Below, piece by piece: positions 32,230-53,201 of a DNA stretch of 64,000 nucleotides; within the stretch, counting starts at the first letter, position 1; every line of letters begins with the position of its first letter. The position numbers and the translations under genes are program-made. Source of the stretch: Salinilacihabitans rarus (GTDB lineage Archaea; Halobacteriota; Halobacteria; Halobacteriales; Natrialbaceae); assembly GCF_024296665.1 (NCBI RefSeq), contig NZ_CP100762.1:1612001-1676000 (forward strand). The letters run 5' to 3'. The notes below the pieces were generated by a model. That model saw only the letters and a program-made list of their open reading frames with translations, was not told the DNA's origin and made no database searches.

Positions 32230-32287
32230 GTATGCAGACCCACATCGTCCCGGTCGGCTTCGACTACGACCGGCTCATCGCGCCGCT
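32230..32287. repeat. attL direct repeat (5' end of DUF6293 gene)
   Basis: Bases 32230-32275 are identical to 53144-53189. There is one C/G mismatch (32276 against 53190), then 11 more identical bases (to 32287 and 53201), after which the copies diverge. The repeat covers the start codon and the first 18-19 codons of the host regulator gene (MQTHIVPVGFDYDRLIAPL). The mismatch is synonymous (CTC/CTG, Leu). The left copy carries host DNA on its left and element DNA on its right. Confidence 0.95.
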
Positions 32288-32384
32288 CGCGGCCTCTGTC
32301 GGGCTTTCAGAGATGTTCACCAATGCCCGAAACCACGCTCGAACCCATCGCTCCGAACGAGGCAGTTCGCCTCTACCTGCGTGA
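32232..32384 (+). pseudogene. 5' remnant of the DUF6293 regulator gene at attL
   Basis: The first 19 codons match the intact gene at 53146. The frame then runs into element sequence and stops at TGA 32382-32384, giving a 50-residue chimeric peptide. It retains the original host promoter. It overlaps the start of the integrase gene in another frame, so its translation could affect integrase expression. It is a by-product of integration, not a functional regulator. Confidence 0.85.
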
Positions 32385-33339
32385 CCGTCAGAACGAATTA
32401 GCCGACGCAACCATCGACTCCTACCGGTATAAGCTCGAAAAGTTCGTGGAGTGGTGCGAGACGGAAGACCTAGAGAACCTGAACTCGCTTTCAGGGCGTG
32501 ACCTACTCCGATTCAAGCAGTACCGTGCCCAAGACCTGAACAGCGTTTCGCTCAAGGGCCAACTCGACGCCCTGCGAGCGTTCGTGAAATGGTGCGAGTC
32601 CATCGACGCCGTCGAGCAAGACCTTCACAACAAGGTTCTCTCGCCCTCACTGAACGATGGCGACCGAGAGCGCGACGTGTTGCTCGACTCTGACGCCGCG
32701 ACAGACATACTCGACCACCTCGCACGTTTCGAGTACGCGTCCCTTCAGCACGCGCTCTTGACCCTACTGTGGCGCTGTGGAGCGCGGTCGGGGACTGTCC
32801 GGTCGTTCGACCTGCAGGACTATGACCGAGAGAACCAGTGGCTCCGTGCAAAGCACCGGCCCGAGACGCCGCTGAAGAACAAGGAGAAGGGCGAGCGTCT
32901 AATCGCCTTGAGTTCCGACGTGTGCCAAGTCCTGAACGACTACATCGACCACAACCGCGAGGACGTGACCGACGAACGGGGACGGAAGCCACTACTCACC
33001 ACGCAGTTCGGGCGCGTCTCGAAATCGACCATTCGGGAAACCTGCTACCGGTGGACGCACCCCTGCCAGTACAATGGTGGTCACTGTCCCCACGGTCGGG
33101 ACACCGACACCTGCCAAGCGCTGAATCCACCAGAAAAGGCACCGTCGGTTTGTCCCTCGTCTCGGAGTCCGCACGCGTGGCGACGAGGGGCAATCACCCA
33201 TCACCTCACCGAAGACGTGCCTGTAGATGTGGTGTCGGATAGGATGAATGTCTCTCGTGAGGTGCTTGAGGCCCACTACGACCGACGCGACGAAGAGGTC
33301 AAAGTCGAACAGCGTCGTGGCTACCTCGAAGGAGTGTAA
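32323..33339 (+). CDS. int: Tyrosine recombinase/integrase
   Basis: A 338-residue protein. The N-terminal SAM-like core-binding domain is residues about 10-100 (AVRLYLRDRQNELADATIDS, LDALRAFVKWCESIDAV). The catalytic domain has the first Arg in RCGARSGTVRSFDL (R155 or R160), the H-x-x-R box in SPHAWRRGAITHHL (H284, R287) and the nucleophile Tyr in LEAHYDRRDEE (Y319). A four-cysteine insertion (C248, C255, C264, C277) could bind zinc. It has no clear promoter of its own and lies just downstream of the displaced host promoter. It should catalyse att recombination. Confidence 0.95.
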   Translation: MPETTLEPIAPNEAVRLYLRDRQNELADATIDSYRYKLEKFVEWCETEDLENLNSLSGRDLLRFKQYRAQDLNSVSLKGQLDALRAFVKWCESIDAVEQDLHNKVLSPSLNDGDRERDVLLDSDAATDILDHLARFEYASLQHALLTLLWRCGARSGTVRSFDLQDYDRENQWLRAKHRPETPLKNKEKGERLIALSSDVCQVLNDYIDHNREDVTDERGRKPLLTTQFGRVSKSTIRETCYRWTHPCQYNGGHCPHGRDTDTCQALNPPEKAPSVCPSSRSPHAWRRGAITHHLTEDVPVDVVSDRMNVSREVLEAHYDRRDEEVKVEQRRGYLEGV

Positions 33340-42131: not shown

Positions 42132-42662
42132 TCAAGCACTATCCAACACAGCGAGTTCGTCTTTCAACTGTTTAACAGCAGATTTCGCCTCGCTCCTATC
42201 GGTCGTTCCACCGACGATGATTTTCCCGCTAGCGAAGACCAGTAGAGCCACTTCGTGTTCGGGCGGTCGGTAAATGAGGCCGGGGAATTGCTCGGGTCCG
42301 TACTCGGTGTCTTCCATCCCGAGCGCGATAGTGAGCGCTTCCAAGTTCACCTCTCGCCCGAGGTCTTCCATGAAGACCGAGGTAACGTGCCTGAACTCGT
42401 AGTCGGGAACCTCGACGCCGATTTCGGATAACACCTCTCGGAATCGGTCAGCCGCTTCGGTCAGATGGTCTTCGTCCGTCGCGCCCCGAATCTGAAACGT
42501 TCCTGTCCGATAGAGAGTGTACGCGGGACCGTCTTCTTCCAACCGAACCGTAGCCATGCCGTTGCTCGTGAAATTAGCGTCTACAGAACCGCCAAGATGG
42601 TTCTCAAGCTCGGAGACGAAGGTGTCTAAATCTAATTCTCGACCGAGAGAGCCGCTCCCCAT
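42132..42662 (-). CDS. TATA-binding-protein homologue, divergent (TBP-like 1)
   Basis: A 176-residue protein with the two-repeat TBP layout. Repeat 2 is canonical: VNLEALTIALGMEDTEYGPE, EQFPGL (124-129) and LVFASGKIIVGG with FASGK at 143-147. Repeat 1 is strongly changed: the stirrup reads TLYRTGTFQIRG and the EQFP loop is lost. Upstream in-frame codons (LEIVST) look like the missing first strand, so a CTG start at 42680 is possible. TBP recruits TFB and RNA polymerase to TATA boxes. The gene is divergent from hsdM and may control it or other element promoters. Confidence 0.85.
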   Translation of the reverse strand: MGSGSLGRELDLDTFVSELENHLGGSVDANFTSNGMATVRLEEDGPAYTLYRTGTFQIRGATDEDHLTEAADRFREVLSEIGVEVPDYEFRHVTSVFMEDLGREVNLEALTIALGMEDTEYGPEQFPGLIYRPPEHEVALLVFASGKIIVGGTTDRSEAKSAVKQLKDELAVLDSA

Positions 42663-42718
42663 CGTACTGACGATTTCCAGATTGGGCTGTTATGATAGAC
42701 TGTAGAACCCAAGTGCTG

Positions 42719-42725
42719 TATATAT
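42719..42725. promoter_or_regulatory. Symmetric TATA-like site between TBP-like 1 and hsdM
   Basis: TATATAT at 42719-42725 is the clearest TATA-like sequence in the 126-base divergent gap. It is nearly palindromic, so it could serve either direction, leaving about 40 bases of leader for hsdM or about 30 for the TBP-like gene. It is a natural place for the element's own TBP to act. No experimental start site is known. Confidence 0.4.
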
Positions 42726-42788
42726 CCCCATCTCTCGGTGTCGAAATCCATCGGAGCAAATATCACGCTCGCGTGAAAGCAGACGAGT

Positions 42789-44294
42789 ATGCCCATCTCC
42801 TTGGACGAACTCGAAAACCATCTCTTCAAGTGTGCAGATATTATCCGAGACGCTGTCGACCCGACCGACTACAAGGAATACATTCTGCCGCTCGTCTATT
42901 ACAAGTCCATATCCGACGAGTTCGAGAAGCAGTACGAACAGAATCTCGAAGAGTACGGTGAGGACTTCGCCCGGCGGAAGAACCTCTACGACATTCCTGT
43001 GGTCCCCGAGGGCTACCTGTGGGACGACCTTCGTGCAGTGAACGACAACGTTGACGAGGCGCTGAATAACGCGTTCGACGCCTTGGCAGACGAGAATCCC
43101 GAGCTAAAGGGCCTGTTCCGAGCCAACTACATCGACGCGGACGCGCTCGACGACGACCGTCTTGGGAGGCTGGTCGAACACCTCTCGAAGTATGATTTCG
43201 ACCGAGACAGCATTCCCCCGGACATGCTCGGAGAGGCCTATATGGACCTCGTTCGCCACTTCGCGGAAGAAGAGGGGAAGTCTGGCGGTCAGTTCTTCAC
43301 CCCGCCCCACATCGTCCGTCTCTGCGTTCGTCTCGTGGACGAGTTCGAGGACGGCTATACGTTCCACGACCCGACCGTCGGCTCCGGTGGCATGCTCGTT
43401 GAGGCCGCCCACTACTACCGTGAGGAACAGAGTGGCGACCCCTCGAAGCTGAAGTTCACTGGTCAGGAAATCAACCCCGACATTGCGGCGATAGCGAAAA
43501 TGAACCTCTCGATTCACGGGCTTGATGGAACTATCGAGCGCGAGGATTCGCTGTCAAGTCCGGAGTTCACCGACGACGAAGCGAACGAACTCACTCGCTT
43601 CGACCGTGTGCTGGCAAATTTCCCCTTCTCGGCTGATTGGGCCAAGGACGAGCTTCAGGACGACCCGTGGGGTCGCTTCGATTGGCACGAGAAACTCCCC
43701 CGCGCCGACCGAGGCGACTACGCCTTCATCATGCACATGGCCGAGCAACTGAAGGACCCCGACAGAGGTGACGAGCGAGGTGGGAAGGCCGCTATCGTGA
43801 TTCCTCACGGTGTGCTGTTCCGAAAGCACGAATCCCGGTATCGGGAACACATGCTCGAAGAGGATATGGTCGAGGCAATCGTCGGCCTTCCCGAGAACCT
43901 CTTTCAGAACAATTCCATCCCGAGCGCCATTCTCGTCTTGAACACGGACAAGGCTGACGAGCGTGAAGACGAGGTACAGTTCATCCACGCCGCCGACGAA
44001 GCGTTCTACCGCGAACTCTCGAATCAGAACGAGCTGACCGACGAAGGGCTTGACCACATTGTCGAGAACTTCCGAGAGTGGGCAACCGAAGAGCGTGTCA
44101 GTCGAACGGTTCCGCTTGACGAGATTCGAGAGAACGACTACAACCTCAATATTGCGCTTTACGTTGATACGACCGAGCCTGAAGAAGACATTGACGTAGA
44201 GACTGAGCTGGCTAAATTGCGAGAATTACAGGCAGAACAGGACAAGCTTGAGAGTAAAATAAGCAACCACATGGAGGAACTGAATTATGAGTGA
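42789..44294 (+). CDS. hsdM: Type I restriction-modification DNA methyltransferase subunit
   Basis: A 501-residue N6-adenine methyltransferase. The N-terminal HsdM helical domain (1-130) begins ISLDELENHLFKCADIIRDA. GGQFFTPPHIV (166-176) precedes the SAM-binding motif I DPTVGSGG (194-201). Catalytic motif IV is NFPF (277-280), a variant of the common NPPF/Y. The C-terminal helices carry a coiled-coil tail that should pair with HsdS. The ATG at 42789 gives the conserved start. It overlaps hsdS by eight bases (ATGAGTGA). Confidence 0.96.
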   Translation: MPISLDELENHLFKCADIIRDAVDPTDYKEYILPLVYYKSISDEFEKQYEQNLEEYGEDFARRKNLYDIPVVPEGYLWDDLRAVNDNVDEALNNAFDALADENPELKGLFRANYIDADALDDDRLGRLVEHLSKYDFDRDSIPPDMLGEAYMDLVRHFAEEEGKSGGQFFTPPHIVRLCVRLVDEFEDGYTFHDPTVGSGGMLVEAAHYYREEQSGDPSKLKFTGQEINPDIAAIAKMNLSIHGLDGTIEREDSLSSPEFTDDEANELTRFDRVLANFPFSADWAKDELQDDPWGRFDWHEKLPRADRGDYAFIMHMAEQLKDPDRGDERGGKAAIVIPHGVLFRKHESRYREHMLEEDMVEAIVGLPENLFQNNSIPSAILVLNTDKADEREDEVQFIHAADEAFYRELSNQNELTDEGLDHIVENFREWATEERVSRTVPLDEIRENDYNLNIALYVDTTEPEEDIDVETELAKLRELQAEQDKLESKISNHMEELNYE

Positions 44295-45675
44295 AGACGC
44301 AAGTTTAGACCAGTTCATTGGAGAGGAAGATGATGAAGACTCTGTGCAGGAATCGAGAGGATTAGAACAAGAGCAGTTTGGACCATTTACGCTATCAACA
44401 CCTGGAGAGTGGACAGCAAAGCGGCTCGGTGATATTAAGAATCTGATTACGAGAGGGAAACAGCCTACATATGCTGATGAGGGAGTCCCCGTTATCAATC
44501 AGGAATGTATCTACTGGGATGGATGGCATTTTGAGAATCTACGATTTTTAGAGCCTGAGGTTGCAGAAGATTGGAAGGAAAAATATTTCCCAAATCCCGG
44601 AGATGTAATTCTGAACTCTACGGGTCAGGGTACTCTTGGCCGGGCACAGGTTTATCCCGATAATGAGCGTCGAGCGATTGATTCTCACGTAACCCTCATT
44701 AGGACTGAAAGAGAGCTGAATCCATATTTCCACAGGTATTTCTTAGAGAGCCACCTTGGTCAGGCCCTTCTCTATTCCATGTGTGTAAACGGGTCAACTG
44801 GACAAATTGAACTCTCAAAAACTCGACTGGACTTACTTCCTACTCCACTGCCCCCTCTCGAAGAACAGAACAAAATTGCAACTGTACTTGACAATCTTGA
44901 CCAAGCAATTTTGAAAATAGATGAGCTACTTGACCAAGTTTTACGGTTGAAGAAAGCAGTCGCTCAGGACCTATTCCATGAAGGCCTGAGGTCATCTGAA
45001 ACCAAAAGTACCTGGCTTGGTGAACTCCCTGAGGAATGGGATACTGTCAAATTTTCTGAGTTAATTCAGTCGAGTCGAAATGGTGTATATAAAAAACAAG
45101 ACGCGTATGGTAGTGGAGTCCCCATATTAAAAATGGGCGACATGTTTGGGGAAATAACGTTTGGCGGGGCCGATATGGAGCGGGTTGAAATGGAGAACGA
45201 TGAGATTGACAAATATAGATTGAAACAGGGAGACTTGTTGTTTGCAAGGCGGTCGCTCAATGTTGAAGGAGCTGGGGAGTGTACATTGATTGGCGAGTTA
45301 GATGAACCAACTGTATTCGAATCTTCTCTCATAAGAGTGCGTCTAAATAACGAAGTGGACCCTATGTTCCTCGCTCAATATTTCGAAGGACCAGTTGGCT
45401 CCAAATCCATAGAAAGAATTGTTACTACTACTACTGCTTCAGGAATTGCAGGAAGTGATTTGAAGAAATTACCAGTTCCTCACCCACCTAAAGAGGTGCA
45501 AAAAGAGATTGCGTCAAAACTGACGGTTTACGATAAGAAGACTACTGTCTTGGAAAGAAGGAAGAAGAATCTACAGCGTCTGAAGCAAGGGCTCATGCAA
45601 GACCTACTTTCAGGAACAGTCCGTACAACCAACACCAATATAGAGATACCTGACAAAATCGCACAGGATGGTTAG
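44287..45675 (+). CDS. hsdS: Type I restriction-modification specificity subunit
   Basis: A 462-residue protein with two target-recognition domains (about 40-190 and 245-410). Each is followed by a conserved helical region: PPLEEQNKIATVLDNLDQAI (central), and HPPKEVQKEIASKLTVYDKK with QGLMQDLLSGTVR (C-terminal). Each domain should read half of a bipartite DNA site, and the helices set the spacer. The gene is clearly more AT-rich than hsdM and hsdR, which suggests domain exchange or separate origin. It overlaps both neighbours by eight bases. Confidence 0.95.
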   Translation: MSEDASLDQFIGEEDDEDSVQESRGLEQEQFGPFTLSTPGEWTAKRLGDIKNLITRGKQPTYADEGVPVINQECIYWDGWHFENLRFLEPEVAEDWKEKYFPNPGDVILNSTGQGTLGRAQVYPDNERRAIDSHVTLIRTERELNPYFHRYFLESHLGQALLYSMCVNGSTGQIELSKTRLDLLPTPLPPLEEQNKIATVLDNLDQAILKIDELLDQVLRLKKAVAQDLFHEGLRSSETKSTWLGELPEEWDTVKFSELIQSSRNGVYKKQDAYGSGVPILKMGDMFGEITFGGADMERVEMENDEIDKYRLKQGDLLFARRSLNVEGAGECTLIGELDEPTVFESSLIRVRLNNEVDPMFLAQYFEGPVGSKSIERIVTTTTASGIAGSDLKKLPVPHPPKEVQKEIASKLTVYDKKTTVLERRKKNLQRLKQGLMQDLLSGTVRTTNTNIEIPDKIAQDG

Positions 45676-48643
45676 TATTCCGTCTGAAGGTGGTGTTGAA
45701 CGCTCTCTCCTATCGTGGCTCGATGGAGTGGGATGGGAAACCCACGGGCAGGACGGGGACCGAGGTGCGAATACTCTCGATGAGGCCTACAACCGGCATA
45801 GCCACGAGGTAATCTATTGGGACCTTCTGGCCGAGCAAATTGTTGCGCTCAATGACGATGTGACCGAGGAAAACGTCGAGAAATTCACCTCGTCGCTAAA
45901 GCGCGACCTCGACGCCGAGAGCCTGATGGACGGAAATCGGGCATTCTACCAACTGCTAACTAAGGGTAAGAGCTTCTCCGTACAAGGTGACGACGGCTCC
46001 ACAGAATCGGTCTACGTAGACCTTATCGACTACGAAAACCCCGAAAACAATCGTTTCCACGCAGTCAATCAGTTCTCCGTTTCCCGCGAGACGACTATCC
46101 GCCCGGACGTGAATCTCTTCGTGAACGGGATTCCGCTGGTCACGATGGAACTCAAGAGCCAGGCACAGGACAACGACTGGCACGACGCTGTGCGTGACCT
46201 ACGGGCCTACGAGGACGACGTACCCTGGCTGTTCATTCCCGGTCTGTTCAACATCGCCGCCGATACGTTCGAGCTTCGCTACGGTGCTGTCGGCGCACCA
46301 AAGGAGTTCTACGAACCGTGGAACGACGCCCCCGAAGAGTTCGAGGACAGCAACGACGTGAGACAGGCAATCAAGGCCCTCTGCAATCCCGAATCTATCC
46401 TTGACCTGCTGAAGAACTTTGTCTTCTACGAGCGTCGAGCCGGTGGAGACGCGAAAATCGTCCCACGCTACATGCAGTACTACGCGGTGAACGCGATTCT
46501 TGACCGCGTTCGTGAGGGCGTCCACAAGCGCGGCCTCATCTGGCACACCCAAGGCTCGGGCAAGTCGTTCACCATGCTCTACGCCGCCGAGAACCTGCTG
46601 TCACGCGATGTAGCCCGCAACCCGCAGGTGTTCATCATCGTCGATACGGACAAGCTCAACTCCCAAATGCGGGACCAACTGGCGAATCTCTCCCTCGAAC
46701 AGTGGACCGAGGCCGAGAGTATTGCCCACCTCGAAGAACTCATTGAACAAGGCCAAAGCGAACTCGTCCTCACGACCATTCAGAAGTTCGAGGACGTTGA
46801 CCCCGACGAACAGGGCAACGACGAGGTAGTGGTCATGAGCGACGAGGCCCACCGGTTCATGGAAGCAGACCTCGGGAGTCGCCTCGACGCCGCCCTTCCT
46901 GACTGCTACCACTTCGGTTTCACCGGGACGCCCGTCCGTGAAGGCGAGCGCCATGAAGACCGGAACACGTTCCGCGAGTTCTCCCCCGAGGACGAGGACT
47001 ACCTACACCGCTACTCGGTCAAGCAGGGTATCGAGGACGGCCTGATTCTCCCCGTCTATTTCACGCTCCGTCATGAGATGGAGTGGGAGATAGACGAAGC
47101 GGGCCTTGACGAAGAGTTCGAGCGCGAGTTCCGGGGGCTGAGTACGGACGAGAAACGTGAGTTCATCCGGAAGAACGTCACCGCGACCACGCTCGCAGAA
47201 ATCGAGCCTCGGGTGGACAAAGCGGTCGAAGAAATCGACCAGCACTACAACGAACACGTCGCGCCGAACGGGTGGAAGGGAATGGTCGTCACGCCGAGTC
47301 GCCGGTCAGCCGCCATGTACGGCGAGCGGCTCATTGAGCGTCGTGGCGAGGACGAAATAGAAGTCCTCTACACGGCGACTAACGACGACCCCGACCTGAT
47401 TCAGCAGTTCCATACTGACTCCGAAGAGCGCGACAGTATCATCAAGGCGTTCAAGCAGACCGACGAGGAAGCCGAGGAAGTGACGCCGAAACTGCTGGTC
47501 GTCCACAACATGCTTCTGACGGGCTTCGACGCACCGATTCTGAAGACGATGTATCTCGACCGCAACCTCAAGAACCACAATCTCATGCAGGCTATCGCCC
47601 GGACGAATCGACCTGCCGAGGGGAAGGAGAACGGTGAGATTGTGGACTTCCAAGGTGTTTTCGAGAACATAGACGACGCCCTTGACTACGACGCCGAGAC
47701 GAAGGCCTACGCCGCCCGCGATAAGGACGAACTCTTCGAGGACCTGAAAGACCAGTTGGAAACGGTCATGGGTATCTTCGATGGTATATCCAAGGACGAC
47801 ACCCAAGAGGCCGCCTACGAGGCAGTAGAGCGCATTAGCACCCATCCGGAACGCCGCGAGTTCAAACAGGGCTTCCGCCGTCTACAGAATCTCTATGAAG
47901 CCGTCGCTCCGGACAAACGGCTAATCAACGAGGGTATCGAGCGCGACTACAAGTGGTTGAGCCGGATTCACGTCGCATTCAAGCGCACAACCGGGGGCGA
48001 GGATGACCCCGAAGACGACATGCGCGAGAAGACGCGCGAGATAATCAACGAGAACGTCGAAATCACGGAAATCAAGGACGACTTCCCGACCTACAAACTC
48101 GGGGAAGAGTACCTCGAAGACGTAGAAGGGTTGGACAACCCCGGCGTCAAGGCCTCGCAGATTGCCCACGCGACCCGCGAACACCTACACCCTCGGGAAA
48201 ACCAGAACCCTCGATACAAGCGATTGAGTGAGCGCGTGACCGACATAGTGGAACGCTGGCAGGGAGATGAAATCAGCGACCCCGACGCCGTCGAGGCACT
48301 GAAGTCGGTCGAAGAAGAGGTGCTGAACGTCGAGAAAGAAGCCGAAGAGCAGGGGATGGATGACGCCGAGTTCGCAATCTACACGCACCTCACCGAGCAG
48401 ACGCCCGAGGCTATCGAGTCTGAAGAACAGGCCGAGGAAGTGGCCGAAGAAATCGTCTCACAGTTCCGCGAGCGCGTTGACCGAGGATATTACGGGTGGA
48501 AGACGAACCAGCAGACCATCGCAGAAATCGAGCGTATCCTATTGGACGTACTGGTGAAGGAAAACGAACTCGGACACCTGATTCGAGACGACGATGGGTT
48601 CGTAGACTCGATACGGAACTACCTTATCGAGAATCATGGCTAA
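45668..48643 (+). CDS. hsdR: Type I restriction endonuclease subunit
   Basis: A 991-residue motor nuclease. The N-terminal PD-(D/E)xK nuclease has TIRPDVNLFVNGIPLVTMEL (D147) and ELK (161-163). The SF2 translocase has Walker A TQGSGKS (to residue 300), SDEAH (392-395), FTGTPVREGERHEDRNTF and the later motif LLTGFDAPILKTMYLDRNL with AIARTNRP. A C-terminal helical region binds the methylase core. No truncation or frameshift is seen, so the enzyme looks intact. It is translated from ATGGTTAG overlapping hsdS and overlaps the peptidase gene. Confidence 0.96.
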   Translation: MVSIPSEGGVERSLLSWLDGVGWETHGQDGDRGANTLDEAYNRHSHEVIYWDLLAEQIVALNDDVTEENVEKFTSSLKRDLDAESLMDGNRAFYQLLTKGKSFSVQGDDGSTESVYVDLIDYENPENNRFHAVNQFSVSRETTIRPDVNLFVNGIPLVTMELKSQAQDNDWHDAVRDLRAYEDDVPWLFIPGLFNIAADTFELRYGAVGAPKEFYEPWNDAPEEFEDSNDVRQAIKALCNPESILDLLKNFVFYERRAGGDAKIVPRYMQYYAVNAILDRVREGVHKRGLIWHTQGSGKSFTMLYAAENLLSRDVARNPQVFIIVDTDKLNSQMRDQLANLSLEQWTEAESIAHLEELIEQGQSELVLTTIQKFEDVDPDEQGNDEVVVMSDEAHRFMEADLGSRLDAALPDCYHFGFTGTPVREGERHEDRNTFREFSPEDEDYLHRYSVKQGIEDGLILPVYFTLRHEMEWEIDEAGLDEEFEREFRGLSTDEKREFIRKNVTATTLAEIEPRVDKAVEEIDQHYNEHVAPNGWKGMVVTPSRRSAAMYGERLIERRGEDEIEVLYTATNDDPDLIQQFHTDSEERDSIIKAFKQTDEEAEEVTPKLLVVHNMLLTGFDAPILKTMYLDRNLKNHNLMQAIARTNRPAEGKENGEIVDFQGVFENIDDALDYDAETKAYAARDKDELFEDLKDQLETVMGIFDGISKDDTQEAAYEAVERISTHPERREFKQGFRRLQNLYEAVAPDKRLINEGIERDYKWLSRIHVAFKRTTGGEDDPEDDMREKTREIINENVEITEIKDDFPTYKLGEEYLEDVEGLDNPGVKASQIAHATREHLHPRENQNPRYKRLSERVTDIVERWQGDEISDPDAVEALKSVEEEVLNVEKEAEEQGMDDAEFAIYTHLTEQTPEAIESEEQAEEVAEEIVSQFRERVDRGYYGWKTNQQTIAEIERILLDVLVKENELGHLIRDDDGFVDSIRNYLIENHG

Positions 48644-49358
48644 AGCCCACAGTCGGAACATCGACCTGTTGGGGAACCCCGTCGAGTACGAGGTACGCCA
48701 TAGCGCCGACGCCAGTGAACCGCGTATCGACGTTGACATTCACGGCGTGACTGTCGTCGTTCCCGAAGACGACAACGTTCAGCCCACAGAACTACTCAAG
48801 GAGAACGCGGCGTGGGTGGTAGACCAGCAACGGAAGTACGACGCCTATCGAGAGCAAGTCCCCGACCGAACGTTTGAGGCTGGCGAGCGCTTCCCATTCC
48901 TCGGTGAAGACCGGGAACTCGTTATTGAGCCACTACAGAAACACGAGGTAGACGAGGATTCGATTCGGCTCCGAAAGAGTGCTGTCGAGCAATCGTCGGT
49001 CAAGCAAGTTCTCGAAAACTTCTATCGGAGCCGGGCGCGGAGCTATCTCACCGACCGCATCGACCACTACGCCGAGCGTATGGGTGTCGAGTACGAAAAA
49101 CTCGAACTCCGAAACCAGCGCACACGGTGGGGTAGTTGTTCGACTGGTGGAACGATTAGCCTGAACTGGCGGCTCATTATGGCCCCGCCCGACGTTGTTG
49201 ATTACCTCGTCGTCCACGAACTCGCTCACCTGACCGAACAGCACCACGGACGAGAGTTCTGGCAGTTGGTCGGAGAACACATCCCTGACTACAAGGAGAA
49301 GGCTGAGTGGTTAGAACAGAACAGCGCCAAGTTGGTGTTTAGCGAAGAAGACGTGTAA
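48636..49358 (+). CDS. YgjP-like (DUF45/M48-type) zinc metallopeptidase
   Basis: A 240-residue protein with RTRWGSC (162-168), typical of DUF45/YgjP, and the zinc motif HELAH (194-198) followed by EQHHGREFW. The N-terminal half is beta-rich. Such peptidases are often encoded after type I restriction genes. Here the gene overlaps hsdR by eight bases (ATGGCTAA), so it is part of the operon. It may degrade or process a restriction subunit, comparable in purpose to restriction alleviation by ClpXP in enteric bacteria; this is inference. Confidence 0.9.
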   Translation: MAKAHSRNIDLLGNPVEYEVRHSADASEPRIDVDIHGVTVVVPEDDNVQPTELLKENAAWVVDQQRKYDAYREQVPDRTFEAGERFPFLGEDRELVIEPLQKHEVDEDSIRLRKSAVEQSSVKQVLENFYRSRARSYLTDRIDHYAERMGVEYEKLELRNQRTRWGSCSTGGTISLNWRLIMAPPDVVDYLVVHELAHLTEQHHGREFWQLVGEHIPDYKEKAEWLEQNSAKLVFSEEDV

Positions 49359-49907
49359 CTACACAACTACCCGTAGTCGGGATTCCATCTGTTCAATCGC
49401 GTCGGTCACATCTGCCACATCGGTCAGTCCGGTGCAAAGCAGTTTCCCGCTGGCAAAGACCAGCATGACGTAATCCTCTTCTCGGTACATGAGCGCCGGG
49501 AATTGTTCGGGTTCGTATTCGGTGTGTTCCATTCCGAGTTCGAGCGTCAGGGCTTCCAACGGGATTGATGTGCCAATATCCGCTGTAGTGACGATGTTGC
49601 TGATTTCTACGGTCGGCTCGTACTCGAACTGTAGAATGTCCCGCATGAGGGTATTAACTCGGTCTGCTACCTCGTGAAAATGTTCGACTGAATTGCCGCC
49701 TGCTATTGAACAGCGACCGCTCCGATAGAATGCGACGTAGGTGTCATCGGGCGCGAACCGAGTCTGTAGCCAGTGATTCTCGGCAGGTTCATAGGTTACG
49801 TCAGAAATCTCACCACGGCGAGTGAATGTGTCTGCCAACGCGTCTAATGCAATCTCTTGCTGGTAGGTGATTGTCCCGACGACGTTGACGACCGTTGGCT
49901 CTACCAC
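49359..49907 (-). CDS. TATA-binding-protein homologue, divergent (TBP-like 2)
   Basis: A 182-residue protein with both TBP repeats. Repeat 1 is TVVNVVGTITYQQEIALDAL, with a degenerate loop (YEPAENHWLQTRF) and stirrup VAFYRSGRCSIAGG. Repeat 2 is near canonical: ISNIVTTADIGTSIPLEALT, EQFP at 134-137 and LVFASGKLLCTG with FASGK at 151-155. Its repeat 2 resembles that of TBP-like 1, so the two are related. The stop touches the metallopeptidase stop with no gap. It may act as an alternative or antagonistic promoter factor for the element. Confidence 0.88.
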   Translation of the reverse strand: MVEPTVVNVVGTITYQQEIALDALADTFTRRGEISDVTYEPAENHWLQTRFAPDDTYVAFYRSGRCSIAGGNSVEHFHEVADRVNTLMRDILQFEYEPTVEISNIVTTADIGTSIPLEALTLELGMEHTEYEPEQFPALMYREEDYVMLVFASGKLLCTGLTDVADVTDAIEQMESRLRVVV

Positions 49908-53114: not shown

Positions 53115-53124
53115 TTTATATAAA
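53115..53124 (+). promoter_or_regulatory. Element-borne TATA box for the DUF6293 gene
   Basis: TTTATATAAA (53115-53124) is centred about 26 bases before the ATG at 53146, as expected for a leaderless transcript. It is element DNA and a better TATA match than the original host element (TTTAGG). Integration therefore replaces the promoter of the host regulator. Confidence 0.6.
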
Positions 53125-53143
53125 CGCCAGCCCGTTGTCCCCC

Positions 53144-53201
53144 GTATGCAGACCCACATCGTCCCGGTCGGCTTCGACTACGACCGGCTGATCGCGCCGC
53201 T
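53144..53201. repeat. attR direct repeat (5' end of DUF6293 gene)
   Basis: This is the right copy of the 58-base repeat, identical to 32230-32287 except for one base (53190 G, 32276 C). On its left is element DNA with the new TATA box; on its right the host gene continues. Because the repeat contains the start codon, recombination rebuilds an intact reading frame. Confidence 0.95.

Follow-up and report, generated by a model that had tools for sequence, protein, structure and literature searches.

The window analysed here, a stretch of 64,000 nucleotides of the Salinilacihabitans rarus genome, holds a Type I restriction operon enclosed by two genes for TbpC-like TATA-binding proteins (TBPs). 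TBP1 (42132..42662, minus strand; 176 amino acids as called; PF00352, 7.2e-27) is divergent from hsdM (42789..44294, plus strand), which encodes the Type I N6-adenine methyltransferase subunit (HsdM_N, 7e-26; N6_Mtase, 4e-81; PADLOC MTase_I, 1e-100). There follow on the plus strand hsdS (44287..45675) for the specificity subunit with two target-recognition domains (two Methylase_S matches; PADLOC Specificity_I, 9e-104), hsdR (45668..48643) for the restriction subunit (HSDR_N, SWI2_SNF2 and T1R_D3; PADLOC REase_I, 5e-126) and, as final gene of the hsd operon, ygjP for a YgjP-like metallopeptidase (48636..49358; PF01863, 3e-59), with an overlap of 8 bases between each gene and its successor. TBP2 (49359..49907, minus strand; PF00352, 3.5e-33) lies tail to tail with ygjP. 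Each TBP shows two repeats, matched by PF00352 over two stretches with 93.5 bits for TBP1 and 113.8 bits for TBP2 against a curated cut-off of 22.9. Open reading frames, coordinates and Pfam agree on the gene order given by the first-pass annotation, as they do on its gap of 126 bases between TBP1 and hsdM (42663..42788) and on the lack of any spare base between TBP2 and the metallopeptidase gene.

By Pfam, PADLOC and motifs, the Type I set is complete: HsdM, HsdS with both recognition domains, and HsdR with nuclease and translocase motifs (PD...ELK, GSGKS and DEAH are kept), while the HExxH-type motif of the YgjP-like protein reads HELAH. Motif IV of the window HsdM (42789-44294) is NFPF, where NPPF/Y is usual. 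The true start of TBP1 is probably a CTG at 42680, 18 bases upstream of the called start, since two relatives from the TBP1 clade (L188 and L225) have an ATG at the aligned position, in a start region that reads ATG GAA AT. GT. AG.; other homologues carry EIVSTMGSG.

The divergent intergenic region contains a TATA-box candidate, TATATAT (42719..42725), which occurs once in the window against 0.19 copies expected by chance. It had been described as symmetric; the element is there, but since its length is odd it is near-symmetric at most. Another stretch, AAATATC (42758-42764), lies 28 nt upstream of hsdM and is weakly TATA-like. It is possible that a single symmetric TATA box serves both TBP1 and hsdM; because the hsdM region has this weak stretch of its own, a shared divergent promoter is not established.

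The module sits in a low-GC island (about 0.53 versus 0.72), inside an integrative element of 20.9 kb (32230-53189). A left attachment repeat of 46 bp (32230..32275) is copied exactly at 53144..53189, and a tyrosine integrase gene (32323..33339, plus strand; Phage_int_SAM_1 and Phage_integrase) lies just inside it. The right repeat comprises the first 44 coding bases of an HFX_2341-like gene (start ATG at 53146) and the two bases before this ATG. From the exact repeats and the adjoining integrase we conclude that the element has inserted at the 5' end of this gene. In the window at 53115-53145, the end of the element carries TTTATATAAACG, some 30 nt ahead of the displaced gene's ATG, as if it supplied its target with a replacement (leaderless) promoter.

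Both TBPs are unusual in their first repeat. At the phenylalanine positions, alignment gives N and Y in the first repeat and F and F in the second, for TBP1 and TBP2 alike, which bears out the earlier reading of a canonical second and a degenerate first repeat; of the two pairs of DNA-intercalating phenylalanines, the second alone is present. This pattern is shared by the divergent TBPs we collected, 87 of 96 having lost both repeat-1 phenylalanines and kept both in repeat 2, whereas all four are present in 21 of 21 ordinary TBPs. The replacements are mainly tyrosine (66/96 and 84/96 at the two positions) and lie inside a conserved local consensus, YDPxxYxGLYxR...YRTGKYII. On the TFB side, the E, Q, F and P of repeat 2 are about 96-98% conserved among divergent TBPs, the corresponding residues of repeat 1 being scattered. 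This EQFP is presumably the stirrup that contacts TFB, by homology with solved TBP-TFB complexes, and in TBP1 and TBP2 it is conserved as EPEQFPG. An AF2 model of TBP1 (pLDDT 90.9) folds as a TBP saddle and has 1ais, the Pyrococcus woesei TBP/TFB/TATA complex, as its top PDB match; the 44 PDB matches with E <= 0.001 consist of TBP chains and of complexes that contain a TBP, with TM-scores (query) of 0.62-0.78. We infer from these sequence features that TBP1 and TBP2 bind TATA DNA and TFB.

Purifying selection acts on the divergent TBP genes, which show a pairwise dN/dS of 0.05-0.18 over 24 pairs, with a median of 0.12. TBP2 is 95% identical to its Natrinema gari counterpart with a dN/dS of 0.09. 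Decay, which we considered for this group, was rejected on these ratios together with intact reading frames. Loss of the N-terminal phenylalanine pair with retention of the C-terminal one is also how tbpC-like haloarchaeal TBPs are characterized in the part of Becker et al. 2014 (PMC4230888) that deals with them, and TBP1 and TBP2 both show it; the same part considers the group maybe non-functional or very specialised.

How general is the linkage with restriction genes? We searched a profile of the divergent TBPs against 391 genomes of the class and retrieved 80 of the best matches in other genomes, together with flanks of about 8 kb wherever the contig was long enough. Loci were chosen by TBP sequence alone, and restriction or methylation genes were scored with local profiles. 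Such a gene lies within 300 bp of the divergent TBP in 58 of the 80 sampled loci and within 3 kb in 70. Controls drawn from the same genome sample gave 0/20 for ordinary TBPs, 0/40 for TFB genes and 1/20 for random places 60-100 kb away. Fisher tests of the sample against controls return p of about 1e-23 and 8e-33, values that overstate independence because the local profiles were iterated on test-set data and some loci are close relatives. As an independent check we took every TBP and every N6_Mtase domain in 17 genomes by Pfam only: 38 of 47 divergent TBPs are within 7 kb of an N6_Mtase, versus none of 27 ordinary TBPs (p = 8e-13). The 17 genomes had been picked for holding divergent TBPs, a choice that leaves this contrast of TBP classes inside them unbiased.

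Ten of the sampled loci had no local-profile match. Pfam and PADLOC place other restriction, nuclease or BREX genes near six of them: a NotI-like enzyme (L203), MjaI (L214), an N4/N6 methylase (L222), BrxC with PglZ (L226), a DUF1156 methylase (L230) and a UvrD/PD-ExK nuclease (L219). Gene sizes at L212 and L217 resemble those at L226; at L229 no restriction gene was seen near the TBP, and L169 is a short contig. A genome scan seeded with TBP sequences alone gave some 30 loci in haloarchaea, and in almost every one restriction genes adjoin the TBP. No restriction genes were found beside the non-haloarchaeal TBPs it returned (mostly Methanobrevibacter), so that the class looks haloarchaeal, in a search seeded with haloarchaeal sequences. 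The linked systems include Type I, Type IIG with a helicase, BREX and simple Type II. TbpC-like TBPs are associated with restriction/BREX systems class-wide. The functional tie to the restriction operon that the first-pass annotation had proposed is strongly supported: divergent TBPs are hardly ever seen apart from restriction or BREX genes, ordinary TBPs and TFBs are absent from the surroundings of such genes in the samples, and the widespread occurrence without such linkage that would have spoken against the idea was looked for and not seen among the sampled loci.

A general tie of transcription factors to defence islands was also considered, and was rejected on the counts for TFB genes (0/40) and ordinary TBPs (0/27). 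Of note, 46 of 74 N6_Mtase loci in the 17 genomes are without a TBP, and a TBP is not obligatory for restriction systems, since many in the same genomes have none. A second strong, HsdM-like N6_Mtase is found in the S. rarus genome at G000:C1:3495691-3496653, with no TBP nearby.

The TBP gene is most often the last of the operon. We classed 64 divergent TBPs that lie no more than 1 kb from a restriction gene: 42 follow it on the same strand as the last gene, 14 are divergent from it, 4 are convergent with it and 4 lie upstream. The gap between the two genes has a median of 18 bp, and 22 pairs overlap. Two or more TBPs are present in 13 of the 80 sampled loci, in forms such as methylase-TBP-helicase-TBP and TBP-hsdM-hsdS-hsdR-TBP (the latter at L208 and L210). 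The TBP pair of the window is not unique. In Natrinema gari a TBP2-clade gene stands beside the same Type I family, and in Halorussus marinus TBP2 and an interrupted TBP1 are in tandem, convergent with hsdR-ygjP. At L184, what look by eye like the remains of a further, TBP1-like gene lie in the gap of about 323 bases between TBP and hsdM.

The S. rarus genome encodes four TBPs. The housekeeping TBP (C1:2300675) is away from restriction genes. A third divergent TBP (C1:779171; locus L009, 8833-17096, corresponding to G000:C1:778832-787095) is flanked by a small winged-helix-like gene and by an operon for a Type IIG methylase and an HKD/SNF2 helicase, so that all three extra TBPs of the genome are in restriction loci. 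In two IMG/VR contigs classed as viral (L311, 3582-8004; L312, 7887-10307), a TBP adjoins a DNA methylase gene, of Eco57I type in one and of N4/N6 type in the other; a ribonucleotide reductase gene is near, and the neighbours are related.

In a phylogenetic tree, ordinary TBPs form one clade with 100% support and the divergent TBPs fall outside it. TBP1 and TBP2 are on branches of their own, separate from the cluster of the third TBP, in a tree whose deep branches are weak, in which the position of long branches, that of TBP2 included, is uncertain, and which took in no NRC-1 tbpC. The type of linked system clusters on the tree yet often switches, with 28 changes versus 68.8 when labels are shuffled. 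Two TBPs that are 91% identical accompany a Type I system in one case (L185) and an HKD-helicase system in the other (L180), and, more broadly, TBPs of 85-91% identity stand beside unrelated enzymes, Type I versus IIG with an HKD/SNF2 helicase.

Several well-known strains carry the linkage. In public records the founding tbpC, that of Halobacterium NRC-1, is last in a methylase-helicase-TBP run, and an intact-looking copy of this arrangement is found on pHLAC01 of Halorubrum lacusprofundi. In Halobacterium sp. DL1 the linked system is of Type I, and in Halococcus dombrowskii a "TATA-box-binding protein C" gene is divergent from BREX-5 pglX. On NRC-1 pNRC100 (L318, 484-9540), an ISH27 transposase gene lies between two methylase reading frames upstream of tbpC, and the methylase gene appears to have been split by ISH27. 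Deletion of tbpC in NRC-1 gave no apparent phenotype, according to the relevant section of PMC2121645, and this split may be a reason. The gene neighbourhood of tbpC is unreported in those sections of PMC4230888 and PMC2121645 that concern the gene, the main text of a survey of archaeal restriction-modification systems (PMC10609329) makes no mention of TBPs, and PADLOC has no model matching these proteins; we found no earlier description of the linkage in the open-licence papers that the literature check covered.

Across haloarchaea, genes for TbpC-like TBPs are most likely accessory to restriction and BREX systems whose enzymes belong to many unrelated types. Near-identical TBPs beside unrelated enzymes, a TFB-contact patch that is the best conserved part of the protein and tight coupling within operons together favour a transcription factor over an enzyme subunit. 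Our proposal, built on these three facts, is that TBP1 and TBP2 join TFB in promoter complexes that set restriction expression. The intact second repeat of each TBP would grip the TATA region, the altered first repeat may change promoter choice or stability, and the conserved EPEQFPG stirrup would recruit host TFB and RNA polymerase. Complexes of TBP1 and TBP2 with host TFB would then assemble on the element that encodes the two TBPs, the probable sites being 42663-42788 and the region upstream of TBP2. In this way each TBP may govern how its own restriction operon is transcribed, as an archaeal analogue of the bacterial C proteins. The promoter that is targeted and the sign of regulation are ones that we infer rather than observe. 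We lean, on balance, towards TBP1 and TBP2 being system-dedicated TBPs that control their own restriction operon with host TFB. Several findings weigh against this: the TBP is co-directional and last in 42 of 64 loci, which is less typical of a regulator of timing, the NRC-1 delta-tbpC strain is inconspicuous, many restriction systems have no TBP, and our search for a promoter motif common to TBP-linked operons found none, in part because start codons are uncertain. A combination of CGGAAG and TATA, picked by eye in several divergent intergenic regions as a candidate for such a motif, was dropped, as it shows no clear enrichment near TBPs and most matches are kilobases away.

Other roles must be weighed against dedicated control of the operon. 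The TBPs might be antiviral effectors or decoys that, when triggered, compete for TATA boxes or titrate TFB and so block viral (or host) transcription. A TBP deprived of its repeat-1 phenylalanine pair and still in possession of its TFB-side motif does look like a possible dominant-negative form, and the linkage extends to many types of defence; however, repeat 1 keeps a family consensus under purifying selection, and the presence of such a TBP beside a methylase in virus contigs (L311 and L312) would be surprising if such TBPs blocked viral transcription in general. We hold this role to be unlikely. Somewhat less probable again, in our estimate, is that the TBPs are physical subunits of the restriction or BREX machinery, DNA-binding or -bending modules with no part in transcription, a role that the TBP domains of TOTE conflict systems may also have. 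The frequent stop/start overlaps with helicase or methylase genes would suit such subunits, as would the TBP genes described, in the portion of PMC12458937 devoted to them, in TOTE/TALON conflict systems, but TBPs that are 85-91% identical serve unrelated enzymes, the patch conserved best is the stirrup facing TFB, and by Pfam the module in the window has no TPR or OB partner.

There is finally the view that spare TBPs simply pile up in mobile defence islands, with no link to restriction, and that the TbpC-like group consists of relics without function, as Becker et al. 2014 (PMC4230888) had considered possible. The mobile element around our module, the interrupted TBP1 relative of Halorussus marinus and the lack of an apparent phenotype of NRC-1 delta-tbpC (PMC2121645) fit such hitch-hiking. 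Immediate adjacency and overlapping genes speak against it, as does the absence of TFB genes (0/40) and of ordinary TBPs, other paralogues included, from the vicinity of restriction genes in the same genomes; with a dN/dS of about 0.12 as well, this reading is already disfavoured, and we give it very little credence.

Returning to dedicated control of the operon, we may ask what it would imply. Every such system would come with one or sometimes two general transcription factors of its own, able to work its promoter in whatever host it enters. This would account for the way in which a mobile restriction operon could govern its expression after arrival in a new archaeal host, and a general transcription factor would join the known components of prokaryotic restriction systems. 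Whether a dedicated TBP class, apart from the housekeeping TBPs, forms a control layer of haloarchaeal restriction/BREX immunity, with promoter recognition travelling in the mobile cassette and in some viruses, is a broader proposition, for which we see the chances as evenly balanced. It has long been asked why haloarchaea have several TBPs, and those of the tbpC-like group were suspected of being dead. The class-wide linkage suggests a job for a group once thought possibly useless, and its near-exclusiveness for restriction and BREX systems makes that role concrete and testable. Model strains exist, with Halobacterium NRC-1, in which delta-tbpC has been made, and Halorubrum lacusprofundi with pHLAC01, a species whose strains vary in their sensitivity to virus between carriers and non-carriers of the plasmid (PMC10544981).

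Compared with known systems, the operon has the three subunits of a Type I hsdMSR set accompanied by a YgjP-like metallopeptidase, with the expected domains, and differs in motif IV of its HsdM and in its two flanking TBP genes. The TBPs have the two-repeat architecture and the phenylalanine loss of the TbpC-like group, to which we add, with respect to the account of that group in the relevant part of Becker et al. 2014 (PMC4230888), a tie to restriction/BREX systems and purifying selection. The nearest precedent for a TBP gene inside a defence operon is the TPR-OB-TBP-effector organization of TOTE/TALON conflict systems; as outlined in the portion of PMC12458937 on TALON, these are largely confined to Chloroflexota and carry TPR-CSD and nuclease genes, and by Pfam no TPR-CSD, OB or effector domain is present in the neighbouring proteins of the window module. 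A different parallel is offered by regulators of restriction in bacteria. The C (control) proteins of bacterial Type II systems are helix-turn-helix repressor-activators, and resemble TBP1 and TBP2 in being encoded, as small transcription-factor genes, with a restriction operon to which they are probably dedicated. Unlike C proteins, however, TBP1 and TBP2 have a TBP fold rather than a helix-turn-helix, and the TBP linkage extends beyond Type II to Type I, IIG and BREX.
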